Shown here piece by piece: positions 12,184 to 45,893 of a stretch of DNA of 64,000 nucleotides; position 1 is the stretch's first letter; every line of letters starts with the position of its first letter. The stretch spans positions 40,736,001-40,800,000 of the forward strand of contig OU612065.1 of the NCBI GenBank assembly GCA_914767715.1. The letters are read 5' to 3'. The position numbers and the translations under genes were made by a program. The notes under the pieces are model-generated. The model ran no database searches. It was not told where the DNA came from and worked only from the letters and a program-made list of their open reading frames with translations. Source of the DNA: Membranipora membranacea. Taxonomy: Eukaryota; Bryozoa; Gymnolaemata; Cheilostomatida; Membraniporidae.

Positions 12184-15100
12184 ATGCTGAAGCGATTATG
12201 TGTTTTGGCTGTACAGAGTCATGTGAATTATTCTCATACTCAGAGAGCTGCTAGTTCTGTATCTGCGTGTGTAGTAGGGGCCGGACCAGCTGGGTATTAT
12301 ACAGCTCAGAGGCTACTCAAAGTAAGTCAGTGTAGGTGTGCCAGATGATAATGTATAATATTCACTTTATAATGCCTCGATCGCCAAGTCCGTAGATTCT
12401 TAACTTGGAGGATATTAATGCTACCCAACAGTTTTGTTGCAACAAGCCATCTAAAGATATTCAGCTTTTACACGCACTCGATTCCCTGCCTCCCCTGTGC
12501 AGACTTAAACATTAATAGTGAGCTATTTTTGAGTCCACCCTTGTGATCTATACGGGGGGGGGGAGTTTTCTAGACTATCATTACATAATGCGAAGCACCT
12601 GCAGGTAAAACATTCAGTTTGGGTAATGACTACACCTATTTTTCCTGTAATAGTTTGCAATATCTAGTTGTATATATGGAAATACCGTACATATTTATAA
12701 TTGTGTTGTCGGTTTTTAGAGTGATGAGCCCCTGACTGTAGACCTTATAGATAAGCTCCCTGTGCCGTTTGGTCTCGTCAGATTCGGCGTGGCTCCGGAT
12801 CACCCTGAGGTCAAGGTTAGTTCAATATCTCTTCTTATGATTATTTTATTCTTAAATATTTCAATTGAACAAATCATACAAATATGATTTCAGCAAAAAT
12901 AAGAATTTCTGCACTGCGGACAAAACAAGTCTGGTTTGAAAACCAGACATCGTTGTGTTAATGGTATGTTTATGTTTTAGAATGTGATAAACACTTTCAC
13001 ACAGACAGCTACTAAATACGGAGACAGATGTCGGTTCATTGGTAACGTAGAAGTAGGAGAAGATATCAGTATAGCTAAGCTCACTCAGTGCTATGATGTC
13101 GTAGTATTGGTATGTATACCTCTATGATATCATGTAGTAGTATTGGTATGTAAAGCTTGGTGTTACCATGTAGTAGTATTGGTATGTTTAGCTCGGTGTT
13201 ACCATGTAGTAGTATTGGTATGTATAGCTTGGTGTTACCATGTAGTAGTATTGGTATGTATACCTTTATGATATCATGTAGTAGTATTGGTATGTATAGC
13301 TCCGTGTTACCATGTAGTAGTATTAGTATGTATCCCTCCATGTTACCATGTAGTAGTCTTGGTATGTTTAGCTCGGTGTTACCATGTAGTAGTATTGGTA
13401 TGTATACCTCAATGTTGCCATATTAGTATTGGTATATATATATATATATCTGTGTTACCATGTAGTAGTATTGGTATGTATAGCCCCGTGTTACCATGTA
13501 GAAGTAAAGTTATGTATCATGTAATGTTTCATGAGCAGCAGACGAAAGACCTGATAATGATATAAGACCATAGCCGAGCTCTTTGCCTCAGCTTGTCTGA
13601 GGAGCAGGGTCTGAGTATATTAGTTCTCATCTATAGAGTAGATGGTCAGTAACACAAAACCTAAGATCTAATGAGATTATTTTCTGGTAATCTGTAGAGT
13701 TATGGAGCTGAGAATGACAGAAAATTACAAATACCAGGTGAGGTACGTTACTCATAAGTTATCTTACTAAACAAATTGATGTAACTGATAAGTGGAGATT
13801 AATACTTGGGGGGTCAGCCCATGTTTACATTTTGTACACCGTTAGAAAGCTGCTGATCTAAAGAAACCATTTTTTTATTTAAGAATTGAGGAAGAAGAGG
13901 CTGTTTTTTTATCAAAGTTAAAAGCGGAGTCAAATTGATGGCAATAAATTTTAAAGCAAGTGACTTTGGCTCAAAGAAAGCTAGGTCATCATATTGCATG
14001 TATGTAAAAGTCTAAAGTGACTCTTATCTTCATTCTATATGACTTGTCTCTACCTTTTCATATTTATGCTCTGTTGTACTTTGTCTCTCTGATTCTCAGT
14101 ATATGGAGTGAGCAATTTGAGCTGCTCAAGCTGCTATCGCTCCTCTATGGTATGATATCCTGCTGTGGTGACATTAAGTTATCATTATTATGTCACAGTA
14201 ACTAAAATGTCTTCATGGCGTTTATCCATTCATGATGGTTATTTTACAATTTGTTGATGCAGATAATAATAGTTTAAAGGGTCAGTCCTATTAGAAAAGT
14301 GGACATATTACCCCAGTAAATCAAATATTGTGAATTCATAGGGCAAAAAGAAATAATAAAAAATTAAAAATTGTGGAAAAAAGAAATTAGTTTTTTTTAA
14401 ATATTTCAGCAAGGATCATAGTGGATCATAGTGGTCAGGGGGAGACAATAAATCACTATGATCCACTATGATCCCAATTTTCAGACTTTGCAGCATTTTT
14501 ACTGCAATTAGGTCCACAGGCTGCTTTATTTCATTTGTCCTAATGAATTTTCAGCCTGAGAACTTTAAAACCGTACCAAACATGGCCTAGTAGGAGTTAC
14601 TCCTTGGTATAATCATATTAATATTGTGGGAAACTTTTCCTAATTACTATGTACATGACCACTGTAACGTACCCTGTCTTATTACTGTGCTGCCTATTGT
14701 TAATTTTAGTCAGCTGATGGGGTTTACTCTGCCTGTCAGTTTGTCGGATGGTATAACGGTGTACCTGAATACGCTCAGGTGAGAATAACTCCCAACATCA
14801 CATCAGTGTCCAACTCATATGTTTAGAAGAGAATTAACTGCCGTTATTGTGATGCTGACTAACCTTGGGTTTATCTCATGTCACATCTACTGTGACAGAG
14901 CTGAGAGAGCTGAGGGAGCCATGCAAAGTCATATACTAGACTCTGAAAAGGGTTCCATTCTAAGTCCAGACCTGGAGCCGGTTATTTAAATTCGCATCTA
15001 CAATTAATTAATTTATTGAGAATGCTCTCTTGGATCAGCAATGAATGCAAATTTTAACTTACGGTAACTTGTTATTATAACAGACAGATGTGCAACTTGA

Positions 15101-18100
15101 TATATTTAGTTGAGGAGATAAACGGTATATTGTGTGGCTGTTAATGGTAATGTAAGGGATGATAGGCTCAGCTGAAGTAGAGGAATAGTTTTAACAGAAC
15201 ATTCACGTCAAACATCACGCTCTTTTCTAGGTTGATTTAATGCGAGCGTTTTTTGGTAAGGCCTCTACTGTGATAGGTATATAATACACTTAGAGTAGGC
15301 CTTCAGGGAAGAATCAGAAAATAATGTGATGCATAAATAATCTTGAGCCACCTAGTGGTTTAAATCATACCAAGGCGGACTCCTAGCTCTTATCGCTCAT
15401 ACTCGCTCATACTCGCTCATACTCGCTCATACTCGCTCATACTCGCTCATACTCGCTCATACTCGCTCATACTCGCTCATACTGGTATATCTATCTCTTA
15501 TATTGTTCAGCTGAATCCTAACTTATCTGGAGAGTCATGTGTTATACTCGGTCAGGGTAATGTAGCTCTGGATATAGCAAGGCTTCTTCTTATGCCCATA
15601 CAACAACTCGCTGTAAGTATCATAAATATAACTGTAAGTATAAAACACATACTGGGTCATGTGTCAGACAATCTGGCTCTGCTGAGTAACCAGAACATGA
15701 TCGGAGTGAGGGCTGTTTGAGAGCTGAGTTTGCTGAATTGTGGAAATCTTATAATTATGTATTTATTACTGATAATTTGGACATCTTGAAAGTTAAAAAG
15801 AGAATATTTGTATCCTGACTTATGAGAGTGCTGTCGGTCAGGTTGTTTGAGACACCTGTTTGAGACACCTGACATACGGGAGAGCCTTGAGCCAGGACAT
15901 GTATACATCACACTGGATGGCATGCTGTTTTAAACTCAGCTTTCACCTATTTTTACTTAGAATATTTTACAGAATATTGTGCCCCTTAATCTGTGTGCTG
16001 ATGTTAGTAATCAATCTACCTGTCACACTTAATGACATTCCTGTGAATACTTAGATGCATTTACCCTTTTACTCCTTGATTTATATTCAATGAGAATAAA
16101 GAGCTAAAGCCATGAATTTCAGATTCAACTCAAACTCGCGGCGGACATGGAACAGAGCCTGAAAATGTTCCTTATAGTTTGTTACTTATTCTACAGAAGA
16201 CAGATATATGCCGTCACGCCCTCAGAGCTATAGCTGACAGTAAGATCAGACATGTATATATAGTAGGTCGTAGAGGACCACTTCAGGCAGCTTTTACTAT
16301 AAAAGAACTAAGGGAGCTTACTAAGTTACCTGGTGTTAGAGCTGATGTACTACCTGAACATGTGAAGGGGATTAATATAAACGGTAAGGTGATAATCATT
16401 TACTGCTGCTCCTCCTCCCTTCCACCTCCCGGCCTCTACCTTCTACCACCTCTACCCTGGGACAGTGATAGTATTATTGTAGTCATGCTTGTTAGATAAT
16501 TGCCAACGGTTATATTTTGTGATATACACCATCACATAAACTCACTGTTCAGTCACCTGATCAATACTTCAGACAAGTCTTATGTAGTGAGATATACTCC
16601 ACACCACATGTTCTATTCACGGTTCAGATTTGTCTGTATTATGAGTTATTATACAGATTTACCTCGGCCCAGGCGCAGACTCACAGATCTTATAGTGTCT
16701 AGTTCTAAGTCTATCTCAGAGGAGGAAAGATCGGTGGAGGAGGAGAGATCATGGAGACTCAGATTCTTATTGACACCCTCAGAGATTTTGACAAACGATA
16801 ACAAAGTCCGAGCTGTCAGATTCTACAAGAATACACTAACAGTAAGTTTTAATAGCTTTTAACAGTAAATACTAAAGTACACAGTAAATAATATTTACTC
16901 CTTATCATAATATGATATATTTATATGTATGAATATAAGAGTTATCTGCTCGATGATAAATATGATCAGTGGGAGGATGATTCTTACTTCTAATTAACTA
17001 CTTTGATTGTATTGTTGTGAAGTTTGGATGAAACTTTCACCTTGCTTTCACATACTGATGTTTGATTTCAGGGAGATGATATAGTATCTCAGAGAGCGGT
17101 AGCTACAGAGGAGATATTAGACATTCCATGTTCTATGGTAGTCAGGTAGGATCTAACACAACGTCTGACTAAATCATACAATATAATCATCCTATTATAC
17201 TGTGTCGTATAGCCATTATTCTTATTATTACTAGTACGGCTTAGCTGACATTTTCATGCATTTGGGTGTTCTATAACCGATGCTTTCCTTTTATTGTTTT
17301 TAGGAGTATAGGATACCAAAGTATGAATATCGCAGCTAATGATAAAATTCTACCATTCGATGAACAGAAGTGCATAATTCCGAACAACAAAGGGAAAGTG
17401 CTCGGCAAATCTGGTAATAATTTGTAACTGGATCGGATTAATTGCTGCCTGTTCTTGTTGATATAGTAGATGCTCAGTGTTATTATGCTCAATGTGACTA
17501 AGGTGATGATTGATTCGTAACTGCCTGAATCAGAGGTTTCAGGCTGACTTTATGCTGCAATATGTGTATATTATTATAAAATAGTTGATTTTGTGGGTGA
17601 TCGCTCCATCATTTATTAGGTAGTTTTTGGCTGTGGAAAATCATTATGGGCTGGAAAAGGAGAAACCATATGCATAAATTTTCTGGTCCTCAGAGATAGT
17701 TGATGTGCTCTTTGAATTATTAGATATAGGATTGTTTTGTAGTGTCACAGAGTGCTAGGGTATTTTATGGATTACTCTCTCAAATGCCGGAATAGGGAGG
17801 GTGTTAACTCCAAATGATCTGGCACATAGGTCTCTTACCATGTAATTGATGCATAGATTTTAAAAACCCATTCATGACATCATCAGGAAAACTCCTCTAC
17901 TTCATTAAAATATATCAAATAGGTGACTCATTGTGCCAAGTTCTTATCTTTTGTAAATATATCACTCAGGCATCATATTAGGTTTTGATCCGCCCAGTGG
18001 ATTTTATGGCATTTCACTCCCATTTCAACCTGTGTTAATTTTTTTACTGACATAGCCCCCTAAATAAGCCCTTGGGTTTTGAAATTCTAGATTCTGAACT

Positions 18101-20003: not shown

Positions 20004-23000
20004 TTACGACTTACTCTGGAAGGCAGATAATACAGGTAATATCTTAGATAAGAGTCTCATCCAGTCATCATATAGAACAGGCATATTATTACAGAGCTCT
20101 AACATCTCCGGCAGTACAGGAACAATACTCCTAATCAGGGTTCTCACCGGCAATACTAATAATATACATATAATATAATACATATAATATAATCAAGTTA
20201 TCACAGCTAGTGAGGGAAGGTGAGTAAACGAATTCATCCACTTATAACCATTTAAGTCAGAGCTCTAACATCTCCGGCAGTACAAGAACAATACTCCTAA
20301 TCAGGGTTCTCACCGGCAATACTAATAATATACATATAATATAATACATATAATATAATCAAGTTATCACAGCTAGTGAGGGAAGGTGAGTAAACGAATT
20401 CATCCACTTATAACCATTTAAGTCAGATAATCGTACATCTATTCTGCAGTAAGTGATGCGTGCTATGATAGGAGATTGGTACATGCGGGGATGGGGAGAT
20501 AGGCATGACAGGAGTTTGTGTGAGTACATTAGGATTAAGGACCGGAAGGGAAAATGTAGGGGACAAGTTTGGACACGTAGTGGGGAGGGGGACAGGTACA
20601 GGAAGGGAAGGGAAAGAGATGGAGTATATGTGTAGGTAGGATAGGTCGGATAGTTACTCTGGGCTCACCTCCTATTAGTGTAATCAGTGTATTGATACAA
20701 AGTTTAGCCATAGTGAATGTCTTATGTACTCCATATTGTCTACTTAGTGAAGCTGTCAGTCTCACTGCAAATACCTGTATCATCAATAACACACATCTAG
20801 GGAGTATATGGACAATGTAAACATCGACATGAAATAAACTGAGGGGTCAGTCAGGTAGGATCTACTGTATTAGGAAGTTTATATTTAGCAGCATCAAATC
20901 AAGATATTATCAATGAAACTGGATATGTAGTTATGTTACATGATCAGGGTAGTCATCGGACGGGCGCGATTAGCCAATCTTAGATCGCCTTACAAACATT
21001 CAGTACAGCCCACTTTTACTCTTTGGGTCTCACATTTAAGAGGACAGATAAATCCTGAGGTATTGGCGAGTGATGTGATTAAAGCTGACCTGTTTATTGG
21101 TATCAGGTTGAGCGAGTAGTTCAGGTATATAATCTAGACATATATGCATAGAAGGTACACCACATATAGCTATAGGTATAACACGTCTGTCATATCCCTA
21201 CAATGATAATTATAACTGTATATAACATTCACAGGTGTTTAACTATACAGGTTAGTTACTCTGGAAGGTCTCTACATTTAATTGGGCTGACATTGTGATC
21301 TTTTTGAAGAGATGGATCTCTCCAGATCTCTCCAGATCTCTGGCAGTGATGCCTTAACTCAGAAGTGCACCAGAGGACAACTTTTGCAAAACTTAATCAT
21401 AATACCACGACTCGTTCCCTGCGTGATTAAACTGTTTAAACTCTTCATCACAGGTCAGCAAGGTGTTGTCCCATGCGGGTTTTCTGCCATAATCACTTGC
21501 TGCTCGCTGAGTGGGTAAGACCTACTAAGAGTCCTGTTCCCAAATCGCTCACTCATTGATGGGACTATATGCATTTAGAGTGAACAAATAGCAAATGAAT
21601 CTGTTTTATTAAAAGACCGAATTATCAAGAATTTTGAGTGAAGTAGAAGCAATAAATTGGCTCAAAAAGCGTCGCTCATTCTTATCGAAGGACACCTCCA
21701 GATCACAGCTGTATGGATAGTATGAGTTGAGTAAGTACAGACAGACATGATTACCTGGAATGAGATGAGTTTAGCCTGATACGGATTCTCTATAATAATC
21801 TTATGTACATCAGAACATATCAGTGTTTGTATCTCTCTCTGATTACATAATATACTCTCATCTCTCTGTAAAAGGAGGCAATAAAAGTCACTCAACATAC
21901 AGAACTCTGTTTGATCTGAGGATGCTGCTGCCTGGCTGCCTGACTGACTGACGATCTATTAGAAGTTATGGGAGGAGCTCCAGAGTGTCAAGAGGACAAA
22001 ATAATATTATCACCTCAGCTTCGTTAAAAGAAGGAATTATATTCTGAAGATGCCTAATTCACATAGTCTCGACTGGTATTAAACCATAGACTATAACCAT
22101 ATTACTTTGACAATTACTGTAACAATTACTAAAACTATGATCTAACCTGTATATCAGGGAGACAATGCTCCAGTAGGATCTGTAGTGTAGCGCTCTCTTG
22201 AGCTGACATCAGACTATAGCATATCTCCTGAGCGTCGGTAAGGCCAGACTGCTGACCCCCCGAGGAGGCTGAGTTTCCTGTGGCGGGCCCCGTACGCTGC
22301 TGTGAGTGTAGAGTGAAGTGCCGATTAGAAGCTCTCGAGTACACACTGATCAAGTGTAGGATTATAGTAAGCAGGTCGGGCTGCCTGTAGAGAGATAAAT
22401 CATCGAGAGGGTAACATCAGGGGAGTAACGTCAGGGGAGTAACGTCAGGGGAGTAACGTCAGGGGAGTAACATCAGGGGAGTAACATCAGGGGAGTTACG
22501 TCAGGGGAGTAACGTCAGGGGAGTAACATCAGGGGAGTAAGGTCAGGGGAGTAACATCAGGGGAGTAACGTCAGGGGAGTAACATCAGGGGAGTAACATC
22601 AGGGGAGTAACGTCAGGGGAGTAACATCAGGGGAGTAACATCAGGAGAGTAACATCAGGGGAGTAACATCAGGAGAGTAACGTCAGGGGAGTAACATCAG
22701 GGGAGTAACATCAGGGGAGTAACGTCAGGGGAGTAACATCAGGGGAGTAACATCAGGGGAGTAACGTCAGGGGAGTAACGTCAGGGGAGTAACGTCAGGG
22801 GAGTAACGTCAGGGGAGTAACGTCAGGGGAGTAACGTCAGGGGAGTAACATCAGGGGAGTAACGTCAGGGGAGTAACGTCAGGGGAGTAACATCAGGGGA
22901 GTAACATCAGGAGAGTAACATCAGGGGAGTAACGTCAGGAGAGTAACGTCAGGAGAGTAACATCAGGGGAGTAACGTCAGGGGAGTAACGTCAGGAGAGT

Positions 23001-26000
23001 AACATCAGGGGATATGTGTGGTGATTATGAGTATGGGGCTGGTAACTTAGACCATTAGGCCCATAGATAGACAATAGAGCGGCCACTATATGGAAAATTA
23101 GTATTGAGGCACTGACTCATGTAATTTGGATTATTTACGACTGGATTAGGATTACGACTGGATTGTCTACGAGCATTGGTGTCCTGATTGATATTCAGTC
23201 TACATATCAGGTCTGCATTTGATTACTGCATAATTTTCAATCGGATTTTGAGCTTGAAAATTGTGATTGATTGAGCAGCTTCTCGTGATTAGTTTGATAT
23301 TAACTTTCACCTCAAGATATTTGTCATACAAACAATACAGGTACACAGTGACGTCATACCTGCACGCTGGGAGACATTGTAATACCAGAAGTGGATCTAT
23401 AACCATCTGCTCCTCTGTTACGGAGTTGTTCTCACCTCGTAGTATATTCACTGTAGCTGGATATAAACTGAAGAGAGAACAATTACAGGTGAGTAACTCG
23501 AGTAGCTAATGTGATTAGTTATCAGACAGTGAAATCTTAGATCTGTTTGGCTCTATTTGCGTATGCGTATGAGCTAGTAGTCTGTAGCCTTGTCACACAG
23601 CCATGTGACAAGTGACTAAGTGGTCACTATAACAAACTAAATATCTCGTCACACAGACAAGCTGACTGTATACTGTATACTGTATACTGGTATACTGGTA
23701 TACTGTATACTGTATACAGTATACAGTATACTGGTATAATGACTGCCGTGTAGTGTGCAGTTATAATTACCGTTCAGGTGAGATTCTACTGTAAGCTAAC
23801 CATGTCTCAGATAGTACCATAGTCATATGTCTGGGTATAGTATCTATAGGAGATGTATGTACGAGTCTGATAGACTCTAGTAACACATCCAGAGATGTGA
23901 TATCAGTCAGACACTCAGCTATAAGTCTCAGCTTTATATACTGTCTGTGTATAATGTCTTCTCTATTAACTGTAAGGGAATATAATAATAGGAGATAACT
24001 ATGACTTGTCTTCTCATTGTAACATTTACTGGCCAATCATATCATTACATGAGCTACCCAGACAAGGGGAGAGTATACCACCAGCCTAGATATTACACGA
24101 ATATAATATACTACTGTTTGATTCATATATTCAGCCATACCATACCACCAGCCTAGATATTACACGAATATAATATACTACTGTTTGTTTCATGTATGAT
24201 GCAGAAGTTAACTACTAGTGGACAGTGTACAGGTATTTTATTAGCTGCCAGGGGTTGTATGATTTGATTTATAAACTACCTTTAGCCATAATACAAAAGT
24301 TGATGTGTATGCTTGTGATCTGTTTATACTACTGCTAGACCAGGAAATGGTGCTTCTATATAAAAATTTCATCCTTCCATAGTCCTGAATAGAAGGAAAG
24401 AGTTTTACTACCAAACCAGATCTGTTGGTTTTGTAGACTGAGCCACCTTTGGCCGTGTTGTTTTCTAATTTAGTTCACATTGTAAACTACCCGAACAATG
24501 ACAGTTAGAGTTTACCTTTAGTTGACCGCGACGAAGGCTCAGATTTAGAGAAGAGTGTTAGGAGCTTATTATGCCTGCGATGATTATATACCTCTGGTAG
24601 CCACATATTAGCTTTACACATGTGAGGTAGATTTGTGTACATCAGCCTGTAATATCACACATCAGATAGTAAGATAAGCTCAGTCTGGATAGTATAGGAG
24701 GCTGAGACTATGTGGTATAGGAGAAGCAAGGCAATGCTCAAGTCTAACAGAGGATCAATCTATAAACATAACACCCCCTCTAACACCAAACTTGGAAGCT
24801 CACTGTCTGATATAAGGTTATGGAGATTACTTACTTTATAAGGGAGAGGTATATATATTACTTACTTTATAATAGAGGGGTAGAAAGATTACTTAATTTA
24901 TAATATAGGAGTAGATAGGTTACTTAATTTATAAGAGATGGGTAGATATATAACTTACTTTATTATAGAGGGGTAGATACATTACTTACTTTATGGGAGA
25001 TGTGGTAGATACATTACTCACTTTATTATAGAGGGGTAGATACATTACTTACTTTATTATAGAGGAGTAGATATTTTACTTACTTTATGGGAGATGTGGT
25101 AGATACATTACTTACTTTATTATAGAGGGGTAGATACATTACTTACTTTATTATAGAGGGGTAGATATATTACTTACTTTATTATAGAGGGGTAGGTACA
25201 TTACTTACTTTATTATAGAGGGGTAGATACATTACTTACTTTATTATAGAGGGGTAGATATATTACTTACTTTATTATAGAGGGGTAGATATATTACTTA
25301 CTTTATTATAGAGGGGTAGATACATTACTTACTTTAATATAGAGGGGTAGATATTTTACTTACTTTATTATAGAGGGGTAGATACATTACTTAATTTATT
25401 ATAGAGGAGTAGATAGGTTACTTACTGTATGGGAGATGTGGTAGATATATAACTTACTCTATTATAGAGGAGTAGATAGGTTACTTACTGTATGGGAGAT
25501 GTGGTAGATATATAACTTACTTTATAAGAGAGGGGTAGAGAGATGCACATTTATGCCTGAGCTCATACGCTTTACTCATCAGACGTTTAGTTGGTAAACT
25601 GGATATAAGTGAGCTACTATAAGATTGAGTTGTCTTTCGTCGAGCTGATCCTACAGAAAACAGACACCTGTACAATTCCACTTGCTGTATAATCACGCTT
25701 ATACAGTATAATCACACTTATACTGTATAATCACACTTATACTGTATAATCACGCTTATACTGTATAATCACGCTAATACTGTATAATCACGCTTATACT
25801 GTATAATCACGCTTATACAGTATAATCACACTTATACTGTATAATCACACTTATACTGTATAATCACACTTATACTGTATAATCACACTTATACTGTATA
25901 ATCACACTTATACTGTATAATCACACTTATACTGTATAATCACACTTATACTGTATAATCACACTTATACTGTATAATCACGCTTATACTGTATAATCAC

Positions 26001-29000
26001 GCTTATACAGTATAATCACGCTTATACTGTATAATCACACTTATACTGTATAATCACACTTATACTGTATAATCACACTTATACAGTATAATCACGCTTA
26101 TACTGTATAATCACACTTATACTGTATAATCACACTTATACTGTATAATCACGCTTATACTGTATAATCACGCTTATACTGTATAATCACACTTATACTG
26201 TATAATCACACTTATACTGTATAATCACACTTATACTGTATAATCACACTTATACTGTATAATCACACTTATACTGTATAATCACACTTATACTGTATAA
26301 TCACGCTTATACAGTATAATCACGCTTATACTGTATAATCACACTTATACTGTATAATCACACTTATACTGTATAATCACACTTATACTGTATAATCACA
26401 CTTATACTGTATAATCACACTTATACTGTATAATCACACTTATACTGTATAATCACACTTATACTGTATAATCACACTTATACTGTATAATCACACTTAT
26501 ACTGTATAATCACACTTATACTGTATAATCACACTTATACTGTATAATCACACTTATACTGTATAATCACACTTATACTGTATAATCACACTTATACTGT
26601 ATAATCACACTTATACTGTATAATCACACTTATACTGTATAATCACACTTATACTGTATAATCACACTTATACTGTATAATCACACTTATACAGTATAAT
26701 CACACTTATACTGTATAATCACACTTATACTGTATAATCACACTTATACTGTACAGTCCAATTTACATTTTAATTTTATTTACAGCACAAGCCCATTTAC
26801 AGCATTATCCCATTTACTGTACAGTCCCACATACTGTACAATCTCACTTACTGTACAATCCCATTTACGTTTTAATTCCATTTACAGCACAAGCCCACTT
26901 ACATTTTTATCCCACTTACAGTACAACTTGACATAAAGACTTACCTGGCTCAGAGTGTACAGACTCCTGATGACTCAGTATATAATATAGGAACACTAGC
27001 TGTGAGGCAAAGTTATCCCCACCGCCTCCTCCCTCTGCTGGGTTATCTCCCCTGTCGACTGATGAAGGAGGAGGAGATGTAAAGTGTTGTTTGATCCTGT
27101 CCTCGTTTAGTTGTGGGTTAGCTGATCTGACGTTGTGCTGTTGAGGCATAGTACTGGATACATAGAGTGATATCATCTGAGTTATCATAGGGTGGAGAGG
27201 CAGAGACACGCTGCCTAACTGTAAATATTATATGAGCACATTCTCAGACTAAAGGAGAGCACATTCTCGGTCTATACCCACATTCTGATGTTAGAGTCTG
27301 ATATAAGGCATTTAGGTATATTTGAAAATACGAAATTGCTCCATGCTACCACTTTCCCTAATTGAAGAGTGTAATTGTTATACCTCTGCGGACCTTGGGC
27401 ATCTTGATACAGCACTACAATTCCAAACGAAATACATGAAAAAACTTGACACAAACACACCAAATATAGCACACTTATCTCGTAGGTTTAGTTTTAGTTA
27501 AAAGCTTTAGAAGGACTAAAGCAATATATGGTCTGGCAGCTAGTTCTGCAGTAGCTGTGCAATATTTCGACACTTGAACAAGTCATAGCTCTCTTCTGAG
27601 TAAAAATGATGTGTAGTTTTAGAAATTGCCCCCTTTTCTCATCTATCAAAATCAGATATAATTTTATACATTAGTCGCATGTTTCTCTTGTTTGTTATGC
27701 AGTCCCTTACTCAATCTTCTTTATATCGCTGTTTGTTATGCAGTCGCTTACTCAATCTTCTTTATATTGCTTTTTAAAACTTTTTAATATTGTATTGGTG
27801 ATTATGTCTAATAGTTATTTTCACAGTTTAAACCTCCCAAATATTTGACGTTGAGTGGCAGCGACCTCTGGATGTTCATTTTGGGGCAAAAAGTGCCCTT
27901 TTTAATTGTGCTCTCTGTGCCTTGTTTTTGAGGTATTTGATTAGTTTATGCTTTCACCATATAGAGGAGGCATGGCACTAACTGGAGGAGTGATATTTTG
28001 GTGAAACTTTATGATTTTAGGCCTCCTGTCTTCGAGACTTGAAATTGATTTTTGCAATAGTAATAGGGCCATTTCTGACCCCTCATTACACGCGACCCCA
28101 ATAATGAAGAAACTAAAATTTCCAATTCATTATACCATTTTGGTCTTGTACTGTCATTTCAAACAATAATCTTACCAGCTTACAGATCCTGGTTGTCACA
28201 ACTGTAACAGATAATAACCCAAATTTTAACTAATTTAGGTCAAAATTTTCCAGCCAAAAATCAGAAATTCAGAAAGATGTCAGTCAAATTTGTTGTCAGC
28301 ATGATGAACAACAGGAGATTGTCTAGGTTTTGATCGAAGCGATTGTTGATTATGGCTTTACATCTTGAGTTATTTGGATTTTTGTGGCTAAACCAGCTTT
28401 ATTTGGTCCAAAACATGCACTTTTTTCCAGCCAAAAAACTGAAAATAGGTTAAACAACATGTTATACACACTAGCTTCCATTAAACTAGAGAGTATTTCC
28501 GAGGTTTTGATCGAGGCGTTTGATGATAAATTCAGTTGTAGAGAAGTTATGAGCATAAGCATTTCTCTTTCCATGCTAAACAATCACCCAAAAAAGGTGA
28601 TCCATTGTTGTACACAATGTGCTTTGCATGTAATACTGCTTAGATTTTCATCACACTTTTGCATAACGTAATTTACTGCATCATTTTGCCCATTGCTGCC
28701 TATATGTATTCAATGTATTTTAGTTTATGTACAATTAATCAAGTTAGGAAAATGCGGTTTGAAAAAATTTGCGATATTCAACACAAGTCAGACTACTAGC
28801 AACGTGTCAGTGAAGGAAATTTTGAAATGGGACAAGTAGTTCCTGAGAAACTGAAAAGGCGATATATCACGTTAGGAGATATATCACATTAGGCGATATA
28901 TCACGTTAGGCGATATATCACGTTAATGATAGTTAGCACAATAATATCCTAAATGAATAAATAATGATATCAACACCGAGATTTGGTCATTTTATTAGGG

Positions 29001-32000
29001 GTTTTAAACAGACTCTACAATCACTCAGACCTTTCTGTTCCCTCATTACTAACCTGATTAGTGACCCATTCAGCTATAGAAACGTTGTGTTTAGAGAAGG
29101 CGCGGCTCTTAAGTAGCTGACATACACAATGTATAGGTAGATAACCTGTCATATTAGCATTCAGATTCTTAGTGACAGATAAGAGTACCGTCAGCTGAGA
29201 TATCACCTGTCAACATACATCTACTTATATAACTCTGGCTCTGGTCTAGAGTCTACCAACGCAATAATATGGCAGAAGTAGGCCAGTTAATAACCTGCTC
29301 TACTTGTGTAATCTACCCTCAAACACGTAGATACTTTCAACAGACCTAAAGTTCTGCAAGCTTCATGATGAGAATTCCAGTCATCGACTTACCCGAATCT
29401 AAGCCTAAGATAATTGATATGATCGCCGAGGGACTTACTGATATCATGGCTATATATATGACATTAAAAAGGACTCACCGGTTCTGTGAACACTTCATAT
29501 GTAATGATTTGTTTCAGGATTGTGTTGGATAGCTTCACTGTCGATGGCTTAAAATAAATAGGTCAGACAATTTAGTAACCTCATTTTAATCACATAAATA
29601 CATACATGTTGTGAATGGTCTATTTCCTCGGCGAAAGCAATTAAAACAAGATGAGAAACATGGCTCAGAAAGAATAAGGTAAAATCGCAATGTAGTTAGC
29701 TAAAGTAAGCCAAGTAATGCAGTACTATGTAATATGGTATTATGTAATATATTAGTACCTTGATAGAGAGATAGTTAGAGATCATCTCAGAGATAGTAGT
29801 CAGCTGATTACTATGATAATGTATGGCTATCAGCAGCAGAAACTGTCCTATACTTGTATCGTTACAACTGTAATTATATAATCATATATTATAGTTTAGT
29901 ATTATGTGTGAGTCTTACCATGTATATAGTTTAATATTATGTGTGAGTCTTACCTTGTATATAGTTTAGTATTATATGAGAGGCTTACCTTGTATATAGT
30001 TTAGTATTATATGAGAGGCTTACCTCGTATATAGTTTAGTATTATATGAGAGGCTTACCTTGTATATAGTTTAGTATTATATGAGAGGCTTACCTTGTAT
30101 ATAGTTTAGTATTATATGAGAGGCTTACCTTGTATATAGTTTAGTATTATATGAGAGGCTTACCTTGTATATAGTTTAGTATTATATGAGAGGCTTACCT
30201 TGTATATAGTTTAATATTATATGAGAGGCTTACCTTGTATATAGTTTAGTATTATATGAGAGGCTTACCTCGTATATAGTTTAGTATTATATGAGAGGCT
30301 TACCTTGTATATAGTTTAGTATTATATGAGAGGCTTACCTTGTATATAGTTTAGTATTATATGAGAGGCTTACCTTGTATATAGTTTAGTATTATATGAG
30401 AGGCTTACCTTGTATATAGTTTAGTATTATGTGAGAGGCTTACCTTGTATATGGTTTAGTATTATATGAGAGGCTTACCTTGTATATAGTTTAGTATTAT
30501 ATGAGAGGCTTACCATGCGTATAGTTTAGTATTATATGAGAGGCTAACCTTGTATATAGCTTAGTATTATATGAGAGGCTTACCTTGTATATAGTTTAGT
30601 ATTATATGGGAGGCTTACCTTGTATATAGTTTAGTATTATATGAGAGGCTTACCTTGTATATAGTTTAGTATTATATGAGGGGCTTACCTTGTATATAGT
30701 TTAGTATTATATGAGAGGCTTACCTTGTATATAGTTTAGTATTATATGAGAGGCTTACCTTGTATATAGTTTAGTATTATATGAGAGGCTTACCTTGTAT
30801 ATAGTTTAGTATTATATGGGAGGCTTACCTTGTATATAGTTTAGTATTATATGAGAGGCTTACCTTGTATATAGTTTAGTATTATATGAGGGGCTTACCT
30901 TGTATATAGTTTAGTATTATATGAGAGGCTTACCTTGTATATAGTTTAGTATTATATGAGAGGCTAACCTTGTATATAGTTTAGTATTATATGAGAGGCT
31001 TACCTTGTATATAGTTTAGTATTATATGAGAGGCTTACCTTGTATATAGTTTAGTATTATATGAGAGGCTTACCTTGTATATAGTTTAGTATTATATGAG
31101 AGGCTTACCTTGTATATAGTTTAGTATTATATGAGGGGCTTACCTTGTATATAGTTTAGTATTATATGAGAGGCTTACCTTGTATATAGTTTAGTATTAT
31201 ATGAGAGGCTAACCTTGTATATAGCTTAGTATTATATGAGAGGCTTACCTTGTATATAGTTTAGTATTATATGGGAGGCTTACCTTGTATATAGTTTAGT
31301 ATTATATGAGAGGCTTACCTTGTATATAGTTTAGTATTATATGAGGGGCTTACCTTGTATATAGTTTAGTATTATATGAGAGGCTTACCTTGTATATAGT
31401 TTAGTATTATATGAGAGGCTAACCTTGTATATAGTTTAGTATTATATGAGAGGCTTACCTTGTATATAGTTTAGTATTATATGAGAGGCTTACCTTGTAT
31501 ATAGTTTAGTATTATATGAGAGGCTTACCTTGTATATAGTTTAGTATTATATGAGAGGCTTACCTTGTATATAGTTTAGTATTATATGAGGGGCTTACCT
31601 TGTATATAGTTTAGTATTATATGAGAGGCTTACCTTGTATATAGTTTAGTATTATATGAGAGGCTTACCATATATATAGTTTAGTATTATATGAGAGGCT
31701 TACCTTGTATATAGTTTAGTATTATATGGGAGGCTTACCTTGTATATAGTTTAGTATTATATGAGAGGCTTACCTTGTATATAGTATAGTATTATATGAG
31801 GGGCTTACCTTGTATATAGTTTAGTATTATATGAGAGGCTTACCATGTATATAGTTTAGTATTATATGAGAGGCTTACCTTGTATATAGTTTAGTGTTAT
31901 ATGAGAGGCTTACCTCGTATATAGTTTAGTATTATATGAGAGGCTAACCTTGTATATAGTTTAGTATTATATGAGAGGCTTACCTTGTATATAGTTTAGT

Positions 32001-35000
32001 ATTATGTGAGAGGCTTACCTCGTATATAGTTTAGTATTATGTGAGAGGCTTACCTCGTATATAGTTTAGTATTATATGAGAGGCTTACCTTGTATATAGT
32101 TTAGTATTATATGAGAGGCTTACCTCGTATATAGTTTAGTTTTATATGAGAGGCTTACCATGTATATAGTTTAGTATTATATGAGAGGCTTACCTTGTAT
32201 ATAGTTTAGTATTATGTGCGAGGCCCCTGAGCCAGGACGAGAGTTGTTGTGAGTGATGAGACATCTGATGTACCGATGTTATCACAAGGCAGAGAGAGAG
32301 AATCACCAACTGCATATCCTGATCTGTCTTCAGAGGGAGGTGAGGAAACAGCTCATATATACTCTCCAGCTCATAGTCTGCAAACCTGTGATACAGACAT
32401 GATAACGTTATGTTATATATCTGGTATATTTGAGAGCATGTTTATATGGCCCAGTATCACTTCTAACCTCCTCGCAGTTTGTAACAGAAATATAAGGGAC
32501 ATGATACTCCTGATGCGTTTATTGAATGATTGATTTGAAACATTATGACGACATGAGTTGACCAACTGTTTACCTGTTTGGGAATCTCAGTTGGTTCACG
32601 AGAATACCAAACAGTGATGAGAACAAACACTAAGCTTACTTATAAGCGATGATCTCTCTTAGACAGGCGTACAATCTTATTAGGGTAGACATTTTGTTAT
32701 GATCTATCTGACATACTCCAGGTTCTATTATAGCAGACTTGAGCTCACGAGATAATATTTTTCTTATCATAGATAGTAGTGGTGACTCCTCAGTAGGCGA
32801 ACTCTACAATACAGTTAATTATATGGTGGGTTATAGACTACCCAAATACCAATGTATGTTATAGTCAGGCAGTTACTTATGATAAAGTTTTGTCAGATTT
32901 GCATGTTAAAAACATTCAATGCTTTACTTGGCATGAGTTATTGATGGTTGAAGATGTGCCTCCCATAATGGAAGGTAACTACCATTCTCTGCATTATGAT
33001 GTCACAGTCTCCCGGAAGTGCAATACAAATAACAAGTCCTTCCAGGAGATTGAAACATCATAATTCAGAGAATGGGAGTTACCTTCCCTTATTGGAGGCA
33101 CTTTTTCCATCATCAATGATTCATGCCAAGAAGAGCGTTGAATTTTTTACTCACAGCACAATATATATGTATACACATTGTATGCACACTTAGTAAATAT
33201 ACATACTATATATGTATATCTTTAATTGATGCAGTGATCATATTAGGCTACTGGCAGAAATCAGATAACCCACATCAGTGTTTGATCCGATGTATTGAAA
33301 TGAAATGAAAGGGAAATTAAATTTCACGCTCACCCCTTGGCTTCTGGGTACAAGTAACATCTTAGCGATCCTCTTATGAGTAAATATGAACTCAGCTATC
33401 GCATGTAGATTCGGTTCACCGCATCCGACATAAAGCCAAGCTAGTATCTGAGGTAACTTATTCTCTCTTACCTAAACACAATCAATAATAGGTAAGATAT
33501 CGCTGTCAATAATAGGTAAGATATCGCTGTCAGTAATAGGTAAGATATCGCTGTCAATAATAGGTAAGATATCGCTGTCAGTAATAGGTAAGATATCGCT
33601 GTCAGTAATAGGTAAGATATCGCTGTCAATAATAGGTAAGATATCGCTGTCAATAATAGGTAAGATATCGCTGTCAGTAATAGGTAAGATATCGCTGTCA
33701 GTAATAGGTAAGATATCGCTGTCAGTAATAGGTAAGATATCGCTGTCAATAAAGCAATGACGGTCGATTAGTTATAGTGAATGTTAGCATTGCTAACAGC
33801 ATAGAGGACAAAATATAAGCATGTGATGGACAAAGTGTGAGGCCTCATCAGGAGACAGTGTACATATTGAACTTTTCGGTTTCGATTAGGATTTCGTAGT
33901 TTTCCATTGTCAAAAGGACTTTGATTATGAAATTCCACGTTTTGGCCCTTGAAACAAGTCGATGTAGTTATTAAGTAATGACTCACACAGGTTTTAACAG
34001 CTTGTGTAGCAGTAGTAGGGCTTATCTCACATATAAACTTTATCACTTCTGTCCTGCCTTGTTGTATCTTCTCGGAGTCTGTCTCCTTACTGTTAGTTAT
34101 CAGCCAGCAGCAAACTGTCATATCACAAACATATATAACCGATAAAGTCACCACACAAAATAATATACTGTCACATCCCTTCATATATAACCAATAAAGT
34201 CACCACACTACATAATATACTGTCACATCACTATCATATATAACCGATATAGTCACCACACTACATAATATACTGTCACATCACAAACATATATAACCAA
34301 TCAAGTCACCACACTACATAATATACTGTCACATCACTATCATATATAACCAATAAAGTCACCACACTACATAATATACTGTCACGTCACAAACATATAT
34401 AACCAATCAAGTCACCACACTACATAATATACTGTCACATCACTATCATATATAACCGATAAAGTCACCACACTACATAATATACTGTCACATCACTATC
34501 ATATATAACCAATAAAGTCACCACACTACATAATATACTGTCACATCACTATCATATATAACCGATATAGTCACCACACTACATAATATACTGTCACATC
34601 ACTATCATATACAACCAATAAAGTCACCACACTACATAATATACTGTCACATCACTATCATATATAACCAATAAAGTCACCACACTACATAATATACTGT
34701 CACATCACTATCATATATAACCAATCAAGTCACCACACTACATAATATACTGTCACATCACTATCATATATAACCGATAAAGTCACCACACTACATAATA
34801 TACTGTCACATCACTATCATATATAACCGATATAGTCACCACACTACATAATATACTGTCACATCACAAACATATATAACCAATATAGTCACCACACTAC
34901 ATAATATACTGTCACATCACTATCATATATAACCGATAAAGTCACCACACTACATAATATACTGTCACATCACTATCATATATAACCGATATAGTCACCA

Positions 35001-38000
35001 CACTACATAATATACTGTCACATCACTATCATATATAACCAATAAAGTCACCACACTACATAATATACTGTCACATCACTATCATATATAACCAATAAAG
35101 TCACCACACTACATAATATACTGTCACATCACAAACATATATAACCAATCAAGTCACCACACTACATAATATACTGTCACATCACTATCATATATAACCG
35201 ATAAAGTCACCACACTACATAATATACTGTCACATCACTATCATATATAACCGATATAGTCACCACACTACATAATATACTGTCACATCACTATCATATA
35301 TAACCAATAAAGTCACCACACTACATAATATACTGTCACATCACTATCATATATAACCAATAAAGTCACCACACTACATAATATACTGTCACATCACTAT
35401 CATATATAACCAATAAAGTCACCACACTACATAATATACTGTCACATCACAAACATATATAACCAATATAGTCACCACACTACATAATATACTGTCACAT
35501 CACTATCATATATAACCGATAAAGTCACCACACTACATAATATACTGTCACATCACAATCATATATAACCAATAAAGTCACCACACTACATAATATACTG
35601 TCACATCACTATCATATATAACCAATAAAGTCACCACACTACATAATATACTGTCACATCACAAACATATATAACCAATATAGTCACCACACTACATAAT
35701 ATACTGTCACATCACAAACATATACAACCAATAAAGTCACCACACTACATAATATACTGTCACATCACTATCATATATAACCGATATAGTCACCACACTA
35801 CATAATATACTGTCACATCACTATCATATATAACCGATATAGTCACCACACTACATAATATACTGTCACATCACAATCATATATAACCAATAAAGTCACC
35901 ACACTACATAATACACTGTCACGTCACAAACATATATAACCAATCAAGTCACCACACTACATAATATACTGTCACATCACAATCATATATAACCGATAAA
36001 GTCACCACACTACATAATATACTGTCACATCACTATCATATATAACCGATATAGTCACCACACTACATAATATACTGTCACATCACAATCATATATAACC
36101 AATAAAGTCACCACACTACATAATATACTGTCACATCACTATCATATATAACCAATAAAGTCACCACACTACATAATATACTGTCACATCACAAACATAT
36201 ATAACCAATAAAGTCACCACACTACATAATATACTGTCACATCACAATCATATATAACCAATAAAGTCACCACACTACATAATATACTGTCACATCACAA
36301 TCATATATAACCAATTAAGTCACCAAACTACATAACAGACAGTTTTCTGAGCTTTGATTTAGGCCTTCATTCGGAGTTGTCCTCCAGTTTGGTACTTTTA
36401 ACCCAGGAAGCATAGTAAAAAGGAGCTGAAATGGGGGTTATCTTGAAAACCACTTCTAATAGGATAAAAATGTTTTTGATTGAAAATGTGCACCATAGAA
36501 AACTCATAAGGACATAGTTTTGGATATAATAGTGGTATTCGGATAGTCATTTATAGCAATCTCTGCCTGTTTTGCGATTGAGATTAATCACCTCTCAAGC
36601 CCCCAATGATTTGGAAACCCTGACCCAGAGGGGTTTCAATGGTGCAGATTCTGAATCAAAAATCATTTTTATCCTATTGTAAGCGATTTAAAAGATAACC
36701 CCTTTTCAGCTCCTTTTTCCTATGCTTCGTCGGTTAAAAGTACCAAACTGGAGAGAGAACAACTCACAATAAAGGCCTAAATCAAAGCTCTAAAAACTGT
36801 CCATAATCTAGTTAATTAGCTGGTAACATGAAGGGAGTGTAGTGGAGAATGAGTTAGCTCAAATCTGTTAAACTTGTTATCTGTGCACTCAAGTATCCAA
36901 TCAATCACCCAACATGAGGGTATAAATACAGACTGAGCTAACAGACTACACTCCGGCAGCAGAGCTAACAGCAGAGCTAACAGCAGAGCTAACAGCAGAG
37001 CTAACAGCAGAGCTAACAGCAGAGCTAACAGCAGAGCTAACAGATAACACGCCGGCAGCAGAGCTAACAGCAGAGCTAACAGCAGAGCTAACAGCAGAGC
37101 TAACAGCAGAGCTAACAGCAGAGACTGCGGGCTAATTATGTATGGGTCTCAAACTCCCATCTCAACAACGAATAATAAAAAATGACAAAATTTCGATGAG
37201 TTTTTCAAATTATGAAGAGTGAGAAATTAAGCAGCAGATACAAGCTTATTCTCTCTAATGCATGGCGTGAAAAAAACTGCTTATGGTACCTTCAACCAAA
37301 TTACCAGGGATATATTCATTATACTTTTAAAGATCGTCACTGACATAATGTTATCATAAAAGCATCAAGGATATCTTTTCATTGAATATGAAGTTTATAG
37401 GAATCTGGGCAATACATCTGCTTACAAATTAAATTATAACAGTTAATGCATACTAACCTTCATTGACAGACCAAGGACAGTTGAGCAGGACTTTTTTTAT
37501 CATATCTAGAGAGTTATTGATATGTAGAAGAGCACCTATCACTTCTGTAGTCGGCAGCAGGGACGGAAGTTCTACAATATATAAAGTAATAAATGCAATA
37601 TGAGAAAACTTAGGCTGTGTCTCGAATTCATATTGAAGTCACTTGCCAGACAATGTTCTATATTCTATGAGCCTCATTGAAAACCTGAACTTACTAAATA
37701 AGCGATTTCATTGTACATTGAACGCTAACACAGATTAAATTTTTTAGGTGTGTCTCAATCATAAACATATAATTACTTTAGTTATGTGTTTATGGCCACA
37801 ATATACTAGCTGTTGGTGCTTTTTTTCTGGTCGAAGTTCTTGTATGTAGATGATACTTGATAACTTGGATGAGCTGAATGTAGATAAGTAACAAATTCAA
37901 AAATAGGGAGGAGATAACTTCTACTTATCTAATAAATACAAAGTAATCTATGTTTGAGATGATTGGGACAGAGTAGTTCGCCATCGATGGGACTATCTCT

Positions 38001-43100: not shown

Positions 43101-45893
43101 ATTTATATAACAAGGGGTGGGGGGCTGACCTAGATCAGTTTACAGACTACATTGTGCTGACTGTCAATGATCACTTCAGTTCATGTCTCTTCATTACCAG
43201 ATAATAGTCTACATTGTCCAGCGAGTTGTCACCCACTACTAATGATAGCAAGTGACAGAGGACAAAAATCTATTGGTTTAGTTTAGACTCGGCTTCAACT
43301 GTTTACATTGAATTTGCTCATAATATTTACGTGATATATATCGCCTTTGAAAACTCTTAATTACTGTATCGTCATTTTCAAGGATAAAACCTGCCTAATA
43401 TTTTTTGTTGAATCACAGAGTGACCTCGGAAAGCTCATAAAAGGCAAAAATTTTGAGACTGGGAAGTTGGGAGCATATCAATTTCCGTCTCTATGCTCAA
43501 CAATACCAAAAAAGTGGATCCATTGTTGTACCATTTGATTGATTGATTGATTTTTACCAGGAGTTAACCCCTTGGTTGTACACAATAAACTTTATACTTA
43601 TATGCGTGTAATACTGCATTGATTCTCATCACGCTTTTGTATTACGTAATTTAAGTAGTTTTTTTATGTCTATTTTTCTTTAGTGTACAATGTTCATCTG
43701 ATTAAAAAAAAGTTAGGTATATGAGATCCTAGTCAGAAAACTGCCTACATATCATTGTAGTGTGCACTGTTTATACTGGCTATATTATGTAATACTATTT
43801 TGTTGATGCTATTTTCAGGTTACTGCTTCCTGTTATTCCAAGAGGAGATATCTGTACAATCTCTTATAGACGCCTGTTTGGCTGATGATAATAAATACTA
43901 CTGGTGTGTAACAAGCCCTACTATGAAAGATAAACCGGTAAGTCTCTAGTCCCCCCCCCCTCTGATACCCGACCCCTCAGTAAGTCTCTAGTCCCCTTCC
44001 TCCTACCCCTATCCCCACCCCTCAATAAGCCCCTATCCCCATCCCTTAGTATTCCTCTACTCCCCAACCCCACCCACCAGTAAGTCTCTAGTCCCCTCCC
44101 TCTGGTACCCATCCATCAATAAATCTCTAGTCCCCTCCCCCATATCTCCACTCCTCAGTAAGTCTGTCTCCAGTAGATATTATAGACTGAGTATTATACT
44201 GTATTGAGTATCTATGATGCCGTTTTGTGGAGGAGGAGTATCCAATATCTAGTAAATTCACAAGCTGAGTATTACTGTGTATCTGTGTGAGATCTCTGTG
44301 TGAGATCTCTGTAATGTCTCCACATTTCACAGCTCTATTGTTATAGCCTATGTCAGTCATTGTTACGTTTTAACACATACACTTCTCTATATATATCAGG
44401 TACAAATACGACCGTGGAGTTTGAGTGATTCTGACTTTGTTATGGACGGTTCACAACCTCTCGATCCTAGAAAGACTATATTTGTTGGCGGTGTACCTAG
44501 ACCATTACGCGCAGGTATGTACTCTAGATACTGATACTGGTGTAGTACGGGCGGGCGGGTGGACGGCTGAGAGGTACGCACCTTGTGCCTCAGATACTGG
44601 TGTTGATGCAGTCAGTATTATTGTTGTTATGAGTTACTAGTGAGAGCAGGTTGAAGCCTGTTTATTGTACTTAATACCCTGAGGTAACCACTAGGTCAGT
44701 AACAGGCAGAGCTAACCACACACCAGACCGACACTGACACAGGGTGTAATACTGCAGCAGTACTACAGTATAAGGTCATCACACCCTCCTCTTGTATCAG
44801 ATTACACCCTCCTGCTGTATCAGTGGTGGTGATTCCTTGTTTTAGTTATCTGTAAACCTTAGATACACTGATCATCATTTGTAGATAATCATAATAACAC
44901 CAGGATGGGTGGGCTCATAGGTTATTGACTCGTAGCAAGATTTTCTGTCAGATATGATTAATATAAAGAGTAATGATTCCTGCATAGCACAGTATAGGCT
45001 GCTCTGCTGCTGCTCATGTATACTCACTAGACTATCTATTACTAGACTGTCACACTGTTGAGAAGTTTAATGGATATCGTTTTAGTTGAGCTGGCTATGA
45101 TAATAGATCGGTTATATGGAGGAGTTTGTTACGCTGGTATAGACACAGATCCTGAGCTCAAATATCCTAAAGGTGCGGGGCGGGTAGCATTCTCAAACCA
45201 GCAGAGCTACATAGCTGCCATCAGTGCCAGATTTGTACAGCTACAACACGCAGACATAGACAAAAGGGTATGTGACTAATCGTTACTCACTGTGGACAAT
45301 ATCACCACCTACCATACATAACATAGAATAACTAGATGGTTGTGGGGGGCATCCTCCATCCAACTAATCCTACCATCCTACCCTTAAAAACACATATAAT
45401 ATGTTAATCTGTTTGTGGTATGAACAAGTAAAGCCCAATTCTGATAACATTTAGTTACAATTCATAAGACAGTGACCTCGGACAAGTGCTTCCATATTTC
45501 TCCTTACTGTTTGTGCTTGGTTGAGTCACTCTGATATCCTGTGTTTTCTGAGTATTATATAACTACACACAGCAGAATATCACATATGTCACAGCTTGTG
45601 ATGTTTGACTAGAGTGCATCAGCTATGCCTCTGTATAGTCGGCTATTATTATTATTATGTTACAGGTAGAGGTAAAACCGTATGTGCTCGATGATCAGTT
45701 CTGTGACGAATGCCAGGGAGCGCGATGTAATCAGAAGTTTGCTCCCTTCTTCTGTGCTAACATAACATGTCTACAATACTACTGTGAGCAATGCTGGGCT
45801 ACCATCCACTCAAGAGCAGGAAGAGAATATCACAAACCACTAGTCAAGGAAGGGGCGGACAGACCACGAGCCGTACCCTTCAGATGGTGCTAG
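40192..45893 (+). CDS. CPEB: Cytoplasmic polyadenylation element-binding protein, CPEB2-4/Orb2 type
   Basis: Eight exons: 40192-41250, 41533-41644, 41998-42216, 42547-42636, 43819-43937, 44400-44514, 45086-45267 and 45666-45893. They give 707 residues; a start at 40252 (687 residues) is possible, since an acceptor-like GTTGCAG precedes it. The protein binds U-rich elements in mRNA 3'UTRs and controls polyadenylation and translation, including localised mRNA in neurons of other animals. The N-terminal half is disordered, rich in Asn, Gln, Met and Gly, and holds an RRAITAQHNYG motif. RRM1 starts RKVFVGGLPPDIDE and continues ISASFRKFGPVVVDWPHKAE. RRM2 holds KTIFVGGVPRPLRA and YGGVCYAGIDTDPELKYPKG. 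The C-terminal ZZ-type zinc domain has CDECQGARC, FFCANITCLQYYCEQCW and H residues. These match the CPEB2-4 subfamily rather than CPEB1. All introns are GT-AG and frame-consistent. Intron 5 starts with repeated copies of its donor. Confidence 0.94.
41288..41346. repeat. Imperfect hairpin in CPEB intron 1
   Basis: AATAATAGTGAGTGAAAAATGAA faces TTTCATTTCTCACTCACTAT across ~10 nt, with one mismatch. Confidence 0.75.
42683..42829. repeat. Three ~50-bp repeats in CPEB intron 4
   Basis: Each unit has an (AT)n/(GT)n tract followed by GAGGAAGCGCAGAGGG or a close variant. Confidence 0.9.
43329..43660. mobile_element. Divergent partial copy of the 27.8-kb TIR element
   Basis: It starts with ACGTGATATATATCGCC, near the family's terminal repeat. 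It shares GATCCATTGTTGTAC, TGTAATACTGC and a CATCACGCTTTTG..TACGTAATTTA stretch with copies 1 and 2. It lies in CPEB intron 4. Confidence 0.65.
43938..44165. repeat. Array of the CPEB exon 5 donor, ~6 divergent copies
   Basis: Exon 5 ends ACCG and the intron starts GTAAGTCTCTAGTCCCC. This start recurs as CAGTAAGTCTCTAGTCCCC and decayed versions every ~40-50 bp in a C-rich background. Reading past the first donor meets TAG at the fourth codon. Confidence 0.85.

Follow-up and report, generated by a model that had tools for sequence, protein, structure and literature searches.

The DNA considered here is a window of 64,000 nucleotides (nt), i.e. the whole stretch that was analyzed, from chromosome 1 of the bryozoan Membranipora membranacea (positions 40,736,001-40,800,000), in a genome of 339,339,785 bases on 18 contigs. 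The right end of the chromosome lies ~272-337 kb (about 0.3 Mb) from the window. Three genes, FDXR, INTS2 and CPEB, show a characteristic pattern: tandem repeats at the start of certain introns that copy the adjoining donor, in most cases together with the end of the preceding exon. The plus-strand FDXR was rebuilt with 12 exons, open from start to stop, and matches adrenodoxin reductase (1cjc_A, E 1.9e-135). INTS2, on the minus strand, has 20 exons, is partial at its 3' end and open throughout, and matches 7cun_B (E 1.3e-86, obtained with an earlier exon join without exon 13). CPEB, again on the plus strand, has eight exons, is open from start to stop and matches CPEB4 in 2mki_A (E 2.6e-120). 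The strand given for each gene also holds for its features below, and all tandem arrays in the window were called with Tandem Repeats Finder (TRF).

The array at the start of FDXR intron 3 is a 36-bp minisatellite of 11.6 copies (13096-13517) that begins inside exon 3 (12981..13109) and spans the donor at 13109/13110 (ATTG/GTATGT). The final 18 nt of the exon form part of the first copy of the unit (16 identical); the unit thus consists of the end of exon 3 followed by the donor GTATGT, and GGTATGT is retained nine times. In INTS2, a 35-bp minisatellite of 66.7 copies (29890..32224) begins inside exon 8 (32194..32385), whose final 31 nt agree with the unit at 29 positions and whose donor follows 32194 (ACAAG/GTAAGC). 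Its unit combines the end of exon 8 with the donor GTAAGC, GGTAAG is retained 61 times, and the array almost fills intron 8, ending 22 nt before the acceptor. A further 31-bp minisatellite of 22.9 copies (24826..25539) begins inside INTS2 exon 12 (25521..25650; 17 of its final 19 nt are identical to the unit) and spans the donor at 25521/25520 (ATAAA/GTAAGT), with a unit made of the end of exon 12 plus GTAAGT, the latter retained 19 times. With units of 31-36 bp, 11.6-66.7 copies and 81-96% matches, all three qualify as minisatellites; their GC content is 29-34%. CPEB presents a variant of this pattern: downstream of the exon 5 donor, after 43937 (ACCG/GTAAGT), the intron opens with degenerate repeats of GTAAGTCTCTAGTCCCC (43938..44165; copies at 43938, 43980 and 44080), which repeat the intronic side of the donor with no exon copied. 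The corresponding TRF row (43997-44101; period 55, 1.9 copies) starts 60 nt inside the intron.

A first-pass annotation of this DNA had drawn attention to these four junction arrays, and all of them are real, with exon end and donor both copied in three and the intronic side alone in CPEB. The introns were correctly named as FDXR 3, INTS2 8 and CPEB 5, the fourth, given as INTS2 13, being intron 12 in the present numbering. The narrow range of unit lengths also held up, but not the claim of a similar exon/intron split: the exon shares are 18, 31 and 19 nt and the intron shares 18, 4 and 12 nt in FDXR intron 3, INTS2 intron 8 and INTS2 intron 12, respectively. The annotation further stated that reading past the first donor meets a stop within one unit, which is correct in all four cases (TGA, TAA, TAA, TAG). 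These stops carry little weight because phase-2 reading of GTAAG gives TAA at once; among five further chromosome-1 cases a stop falls within one unit in three, whereas the other two read beyond it. An early stop after GTAAG being expected, we do not use the stops as evidence.

The same architecture recurs across the genome. Our pattern search looked for three AGGTAAG motifs spaced 21-51 bases apart, with a reversed and a permuted motif as controls, and the AGGTAAG arrays discussed here are those among the matches listed, from chromosome 1 to part of chromosome 7 (chromosome 5 has none among the matches listed). Of 23 such distinct arrays, 13 begin at what appears to be the end of an exon, nine do not, and in one the flank was not reached. 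On chromosome 1 the count is six of ten, including the INTS2 intron 8 array itself; here a dispersed 31-bp family was entered once, and flanks were read for eight single arrays and for two of the ten listed places of that family, in addition to the window's own array. Chromosomes 2, 3, 4, 6 and 7 contribute seven of 13, with five not on an exon end and one read still inside the array; these are 13 of the 14 new listed arrays, with a period of 39-47 or a divisor thereof, after a 5-bp simple repeat on chromosome 7 was dropped. The initial observation is largely right, and the class extends through the genome in unrelated genes.

The genes with exon-end arrays include those for an IP3 receptor, a G protein-coupled receptor, an LRR protein and a WD40 protein. 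Six of the 13 have support from a family match above a curated cut-off or from the PDB, namely INTS2 (PDB), the IP3 receptor, LRR, 7tm_1, carboxylesterase and WD40. In the LRR and 7tm_1 cases the match lies in the very exon that ends at the donor, and for carboxylesterase and WD40 the match above the cut-off falls downstream of the junction, in later exons. Three others have only sub-threshold matches (cullin, spectrin and DUF4149), with no PDB match found for the spectrin-like exon, and the remaining four (loci L025, L039, L045 and L051) are supported by an open frame that runs up to the donor. A possible likeness of L051 to SRBD1/Tex gained no support from the searches.

Homology and reading frame point to the first donor of each array as the one in use. 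At the FDXR exon 3/4 join (..CYDVVVL/SYGAEN..) the alignment to 1cjc_A is ungapped, and at the CPEB exon 5/6 join that to 2mki_A has no insertion; hence, the first donor is predicted to be the one that gives the conserved protein. The IP3 receptor match (E 9e-59) likewise crosses its junction (..DCTPQ/VKCAYI..) without insertion, and in all five cases with both flanks the first donor joins a downstream exon in frame (by eye, with hand-picked acceptors). Across the 15 junction arrays (the 13 AGGTAAG arrays plus those of FDXR and INTS2 intron 12) the unit takes 6-40 nt from the exon and 2-31 nt from the intron. Two of the 15 unit lengths are divisible by three, where chance would give five, and there is therefore no sign of frame-keeping. 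At loci L038 and L039 the unit is almost entirely exon plus GT, since AAG or AAGT in the exon aligns with the AAG(T) of the donor; this alignment, in two cases only, would suit an origin by slippage or microhomology.

With moderate confidence, we favor the reading that these are minisatellites clustered at chromosome ends, among which duplications straddling a donor survive as the first donor stays in use. The process would start with a small tandem duplication of 20-50 bp in a genome whose arrays are concentrated near chromosome ends. Where such a duplication straddled a 5' splice site, it would place new copies of the exon tail and donor beyond the original donor; provided that the spliceosome kept to the first donor, these copies would become intron and leave the protein unchanged, so that the duplication could survive and expand by ordinary repeat instability. 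Mirror duplications at acceptors or within exons would more often be harmful, and arrays would for that reason stop short of acceptors but might overlap donors. From the sequences we infer both the duplication route for the birth of the arrays and the use of the first donor in the RNA; the selective asymmetry between donor and acceptor is likewise postulated.

The chromosomal distribution is consistent with this. Among the 22 single-locus AGGTAAG arrays listed (the 31-bp family excluded, the array whose flank was not reached included), 16 lie <=3 Mb from a chromosome end, where 3.6 would be expected, and 13 lie <=1.5 Mb from one, against an expected 1.8. By class, ten of the 13 junction arrays listed and two of the eight non-junction ones fall in this last 1.5 Mb. 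Arrays of score >=100 account for 14.2% of the bases of the window versus 0.7% in 18 sampled 10-kb background stretches, one of which is also near an end of chromosome 1; minisatellite-rich chromosome ends thus explain the richness of the window in arrays. A parallel is offered by human variable number tandem repeats (VNTRs), in which, according to passages of one study, structural variants reach a 7.1-fold higher density over the last 5 Mb (PMC7608644). As described there, subtelomeric VNTRs resemble the present arrays in having units >15 bp, in being strongly enriched in the last 5 Mb, which is attributed to recombination and faulty repair, and in lying in part within genes; many of them vary between people. 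They differ in that the enriched ones are GC-rich, unlike the window arrays with their GC content given above, and units that copy junctions are not described in those passages.

Several observations weigh against donor tolerance as a sufficient account. They concern in part the main set of arrays in the three window genes (n=12; period >=10, >=2.5 copies), for which an acceptor is counted as spanned when the overlap exceeds 3 nt. First, tolerance acting on a uniform input of duplications predicts 0.45 donor-spanning arrays where three are seen, and some attraction or selection may thus be needed. Second, none of the 12 spans an acceptor, but with 0.45 expected (P of zero 0.63) this is by itself no evidence of asymmetry. 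Third, a two-copy tandem duplication of 166 bp (20092..20427; 99% matches) does span the acceptor of INTS2 exon 20 together with the start of the exon; it is the sole acceptor-spanning repeat among the 20 array rows tested in the three genes, and its match level indicates that recent acceptor-spanning duplications exist too. Fourth, six of the 12 arrays end <=35 nt upstream of an acceptor against 1.0 expected (P 0.0003, with a distance cut set after inspecting the data); one of the six is the donor array of INTS2 intron 8, without which P is 0.002. Simple donor tolerance does not predict this hugging of acceptors. Fifth, in the array of L051/L046 the first donor is GC (CAG/GCAAGT) with GT copies deeper in, which makes first-donor use less obvious there. 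Finally, the permuted-motif arrays listed on chromosome 1 lean toward the ends too (three of seven within 3 Mb).

Several arrays end close to acceptors. In INTS2, 17/19-bp arrays occupy intron 11 (25685..26926), starting ~19 nt downstream of the donor and ending ~35 nt upstream of the acceptor, and some of their donor-nearest copies equal TGTAAGTGGG with no exon copied; a 14-bp array of 43 copies (22411..23012) stops 26 nt before the exon 16 acceptor, a 24-bp array (33482..33752) 10 nt before that of exon 6, and a 53-bp array of 41.9 copies (34114..36335) reaches the exon 5 acceptor itself (..GATATGACAG/). In FDXR a 10-bp array (15393..15483) stops 27 nt before the exon 6 acceptor. Read on the other strand from INTS2, the 24-bp array also contains AGGTAAGAT, which strongly resembles a donor.

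Arrays may thus sit at both intron ends. Eight of the 12 overlap or lie <=35 nt from a splice site against 2.25 expected (P 0.0002, with the same post hoc cut). A donor-array gene elsewhere on chromosome 1 (L024; WD40 by family match), which we take to be AHI1-like, has in its next intron a 36-bp array of acceptor-like units, reading ..TATATTATTACAG/GG.. with a branch-point-like CTGAT by eye. This array (loci L033/L049; chromosome 1, 272850-274400) has the unit CTGTATACTGATGTATATTATTACAGGGTATGAGAT in at least 17 copies, 17 of them within 611 bases of L049. As a control for acceptors, triples of TTTTCAG gave 77 matches versus 87 for the reversed motif, a test rejected as underpowered because only ~1/37 of the window-model acceptors carries TTTTCAG. 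We would tentatively entertain the broader idea, at which the count of eight in 12 and the acceptor-like array hint, that splice sites themselves are preferred birthplaces of minisatellites in this lineage, with donors and exon tails duplicated and acceptor regions amplified immediately upstream of the AG. Many intronic arrays would then be arrays of splice signals at either end of the intron, and a first-donor rule would have to operate past tens of near-identical competitors.

An active seeding of arrays is a possible alternative to passive tolerance, albeit one we regard as doubtful. It holds that splice sites themselves raise the rate of junction duplication, be it through stalled or R-loop transcription, occupancy by U1 or the spliceosome, or microhomology between GTAAGT and an exonic AAGT. 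The window counts speak for it: against the three donor-spanning arrays, 0.45-0.57 are expected under several placement nulls, two of them nearly alike (P 0.008-0.018). Plain random placement of the 12 predicts 0.50 donor-spanning and 0.51 acceptor-spanning arrays; once introns are collapsed to one unit, the expectation is 0.45 of each (P 0.008 for the three donor-spanning ones). The result is three of ten for periods >=14 (P 0.011) and three of 20 versus 1.55 expected (P 0.19) once eight weaker arrays are added to form an extended set. These P values are optimistic since this single window was flagged for this very pattern. Seeding is further disfavored by the lack of an excess near donors without overlap: by nearness alone, three arrays lie <=35 nt from a donor against 1.2 expected (P 0.11). 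Donor-likeness of the units compared with shuffled units is weak as evidence of enrichment: scores >=8 are attained by three of 13 window arrays (0.7 expected, P 0.03) and by one of five in the background sample (P 0.40), and scores >=6 by four of the 13 window arrays (P 0.12).

The genome-wide counts are similarly two-sided. Triples of AGGTAAG gave 903 matches versus 89 for the reversed and 699 for the permuted motif; we reject such raw counts as proof of enrichment, for large satellites can dominate them, as the permuted motif illustrates, its listed matches being mostly blocks of one 10-bp satellite on chromosome 5. Three blocks of this AAGTGAAGGC satellite lie at 26.70-27.50 Mb of that chromosome. 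Counted as distinct arrays on chromosome 1 among the matches listed, the figures are ten for AGGTAAG and seven for the permuted motif, which speaks against seeding. More in its favor is that 13 of 22 determinable listed arrays (59%) lie at exon ends, whereas donors are estimated to make up ~19% of AGGTAAG sites. That base rate assumes 120,000-150,000 donors, with introns per gene guessed and gene numbers taken from two other bryozoans. The P value for 13 of 22 is 4e-5 at 19%, 0.001 at 26%, 0.004 at 30% and 0.055 at 40%. The motif itself occurs 31 times in 180 kb against 30, 26 and 36 for three other letter orders, i.e. without excess, and it is found at three of 37 window donors. Of the only seven AGGTAAG sites outside arrays in the window at least two are donors, and the base rate may therefore be far higher near chromosome ends; being estimated and possibly high, it leaves the donor excess suggestive only. 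Seeding also draws on the intron share of <=8 nt in seven of the 15 units, though the AGGTAAG pattern itself constrains that share, on the exonic AAG/AAGT abutting the repeat at L038 and L039 (by eye) and on the arrays that abut acceptors. The first-pass annotation had argued that independent genes sharing this design imply a mechanism rather than chance; the above counts fall short of this, suggesting a donor preference beyond chance and leaving an active mechanism behind the junction arrays as a possibility.

A selected function, whereby donor arrays are kept since many U1 sites help (in robust recognition or by guarding long repeat-filled introns against premature polyadenylation), strikes us as improbable. 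Most copies in the long arrays have kept the donor (GGTAAG 61 times over 66.7 units in INTS2 intron 8, GTAAGT 19 times over 23 units in intron 12), which would agree with it, but the homogeneity of the arrays yields equal donor retention without selection. Moreover, AGGTAAG is antisense in the 33482-33752 array and, by eye, in that of L036, and the repeats of CPEB and INTS2 intron 11 are degenerate. Very improbable, too, is that assembly artefact or chance coincidence accounts for the arrays: tandem repeats are error-prone in assemblies and some donors will be hit by chance, but this assembly was built on 66-fold HiFi reads (PMC10290214), the copies differ from one another, and 13 loci on five chromosomes are involved, making an artefact unlikely. 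The birth of introns from an exon segment that contains AGGT and is duplicated in tandem (the Rogers model) is scarcely credible: units are partly exonic with a donor beside exon sequence, and there are precedents in fission yeast, potato and ATP2A1 in passages of PMC4974935 and PMC3629103, but the acceptors are not unit copies and lie outside the arrays (~180 nt beyond in FDXR intron 3 and INTS2 intron 12, 22 nt beyond in INTS2 intron 8 and likewise outside, by eye, at five chromosome-1 loci), and we reject it for these eight introns.

The intron-gain duplication model (Rogers 1989; Hellsten 2011; cited in PMC4974935) shares with the present arrays a short tandem duplication with a splice signal inside a gene; as set out in the passages concerned, it creates a new intron with both sites, whereas here an existing intron keeps its acceptor and the donor is multiplied. 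The 24-nt repeats of the fission yeast genes SPOG_01682 and SOCG_00815 are similar in that, according to passages of PMC3629103, the unit has a cryptic splice site (AGGC) and exonic sequence and the intron begins inside the repeats. They differ in that both introns consist of repeat copies and the case comprises two orthologous genes (PMC3629103). A literature search (PMC), covering mostly open papers and hence a weak negative, returned no paper that we recognized as describing donor-seeded minisatellites as a class. A VNTR of USH1C is placed in intron 5 in passages of PMC1895989, which do not describe it as reaching across the donor, and the minisatellites of earthworm metallothionein appear unrelated from the passages of PMC12783039. 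In contrast to the fission yeast repeats, the class seen in the window has exon end and donor where an otherwise ordinary intron begins, and this in many genes.

A few other repeats encountered in this survey deserve mention. At L029 and L030 (chromosome 1, 33.57-34.38 Mb) a dispersed 31-bp AGGTAAGTACGGGTTTATATTTGCTTGACTG array occurs in at least ten places over 0.8 Mb; two of its flanks read near-identical, marking a mobile or segmentally duplicated family with donor-like repeats. The antisense AGGTAAG array of L036 (chromosome 2, 37.24 Mb) ends, by eye, beside an apparent acceptor of an opposite-strand exon. A 37-bp array on chromosome 4 (151618-152031), 0.15 Mb from an end and recovered with the permuted motif, carries TACTTACCCT, which on the other strand reads as the donor-like AGGGTAAGTA and makes the array a candidate for another donor array. 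Within the window, a degenerate 14-bp repeat (19107-19180) directly follows the FDXR stop codon, and its units echo the surroundings of that codon (TGATGAGTAAC).

Tandem alternative donors of the GTNNGT type comprise two competing sites a few nt apart. INTS2 intron 8 also presents competing donors in a row, but there are ~60 of them, intact and 35 nt apart. Each array is a natural competition experiment, in the case of INTS2 intron 8 with ~60 near-identical donors of which homology leads one to expect the first to be used. The choice of the first donor in such long tandem sets is directly testable with existing RNA-seq data from the same specimen (ERR6464929; PMC10290214). The arrays near acceptors add an aspect that was absent from the earlier, donor-only observation. 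If it is true that donors seed repeats, splicing signals would be tied to the birth of repeats, and introns would have a way of growing longer from their ends.

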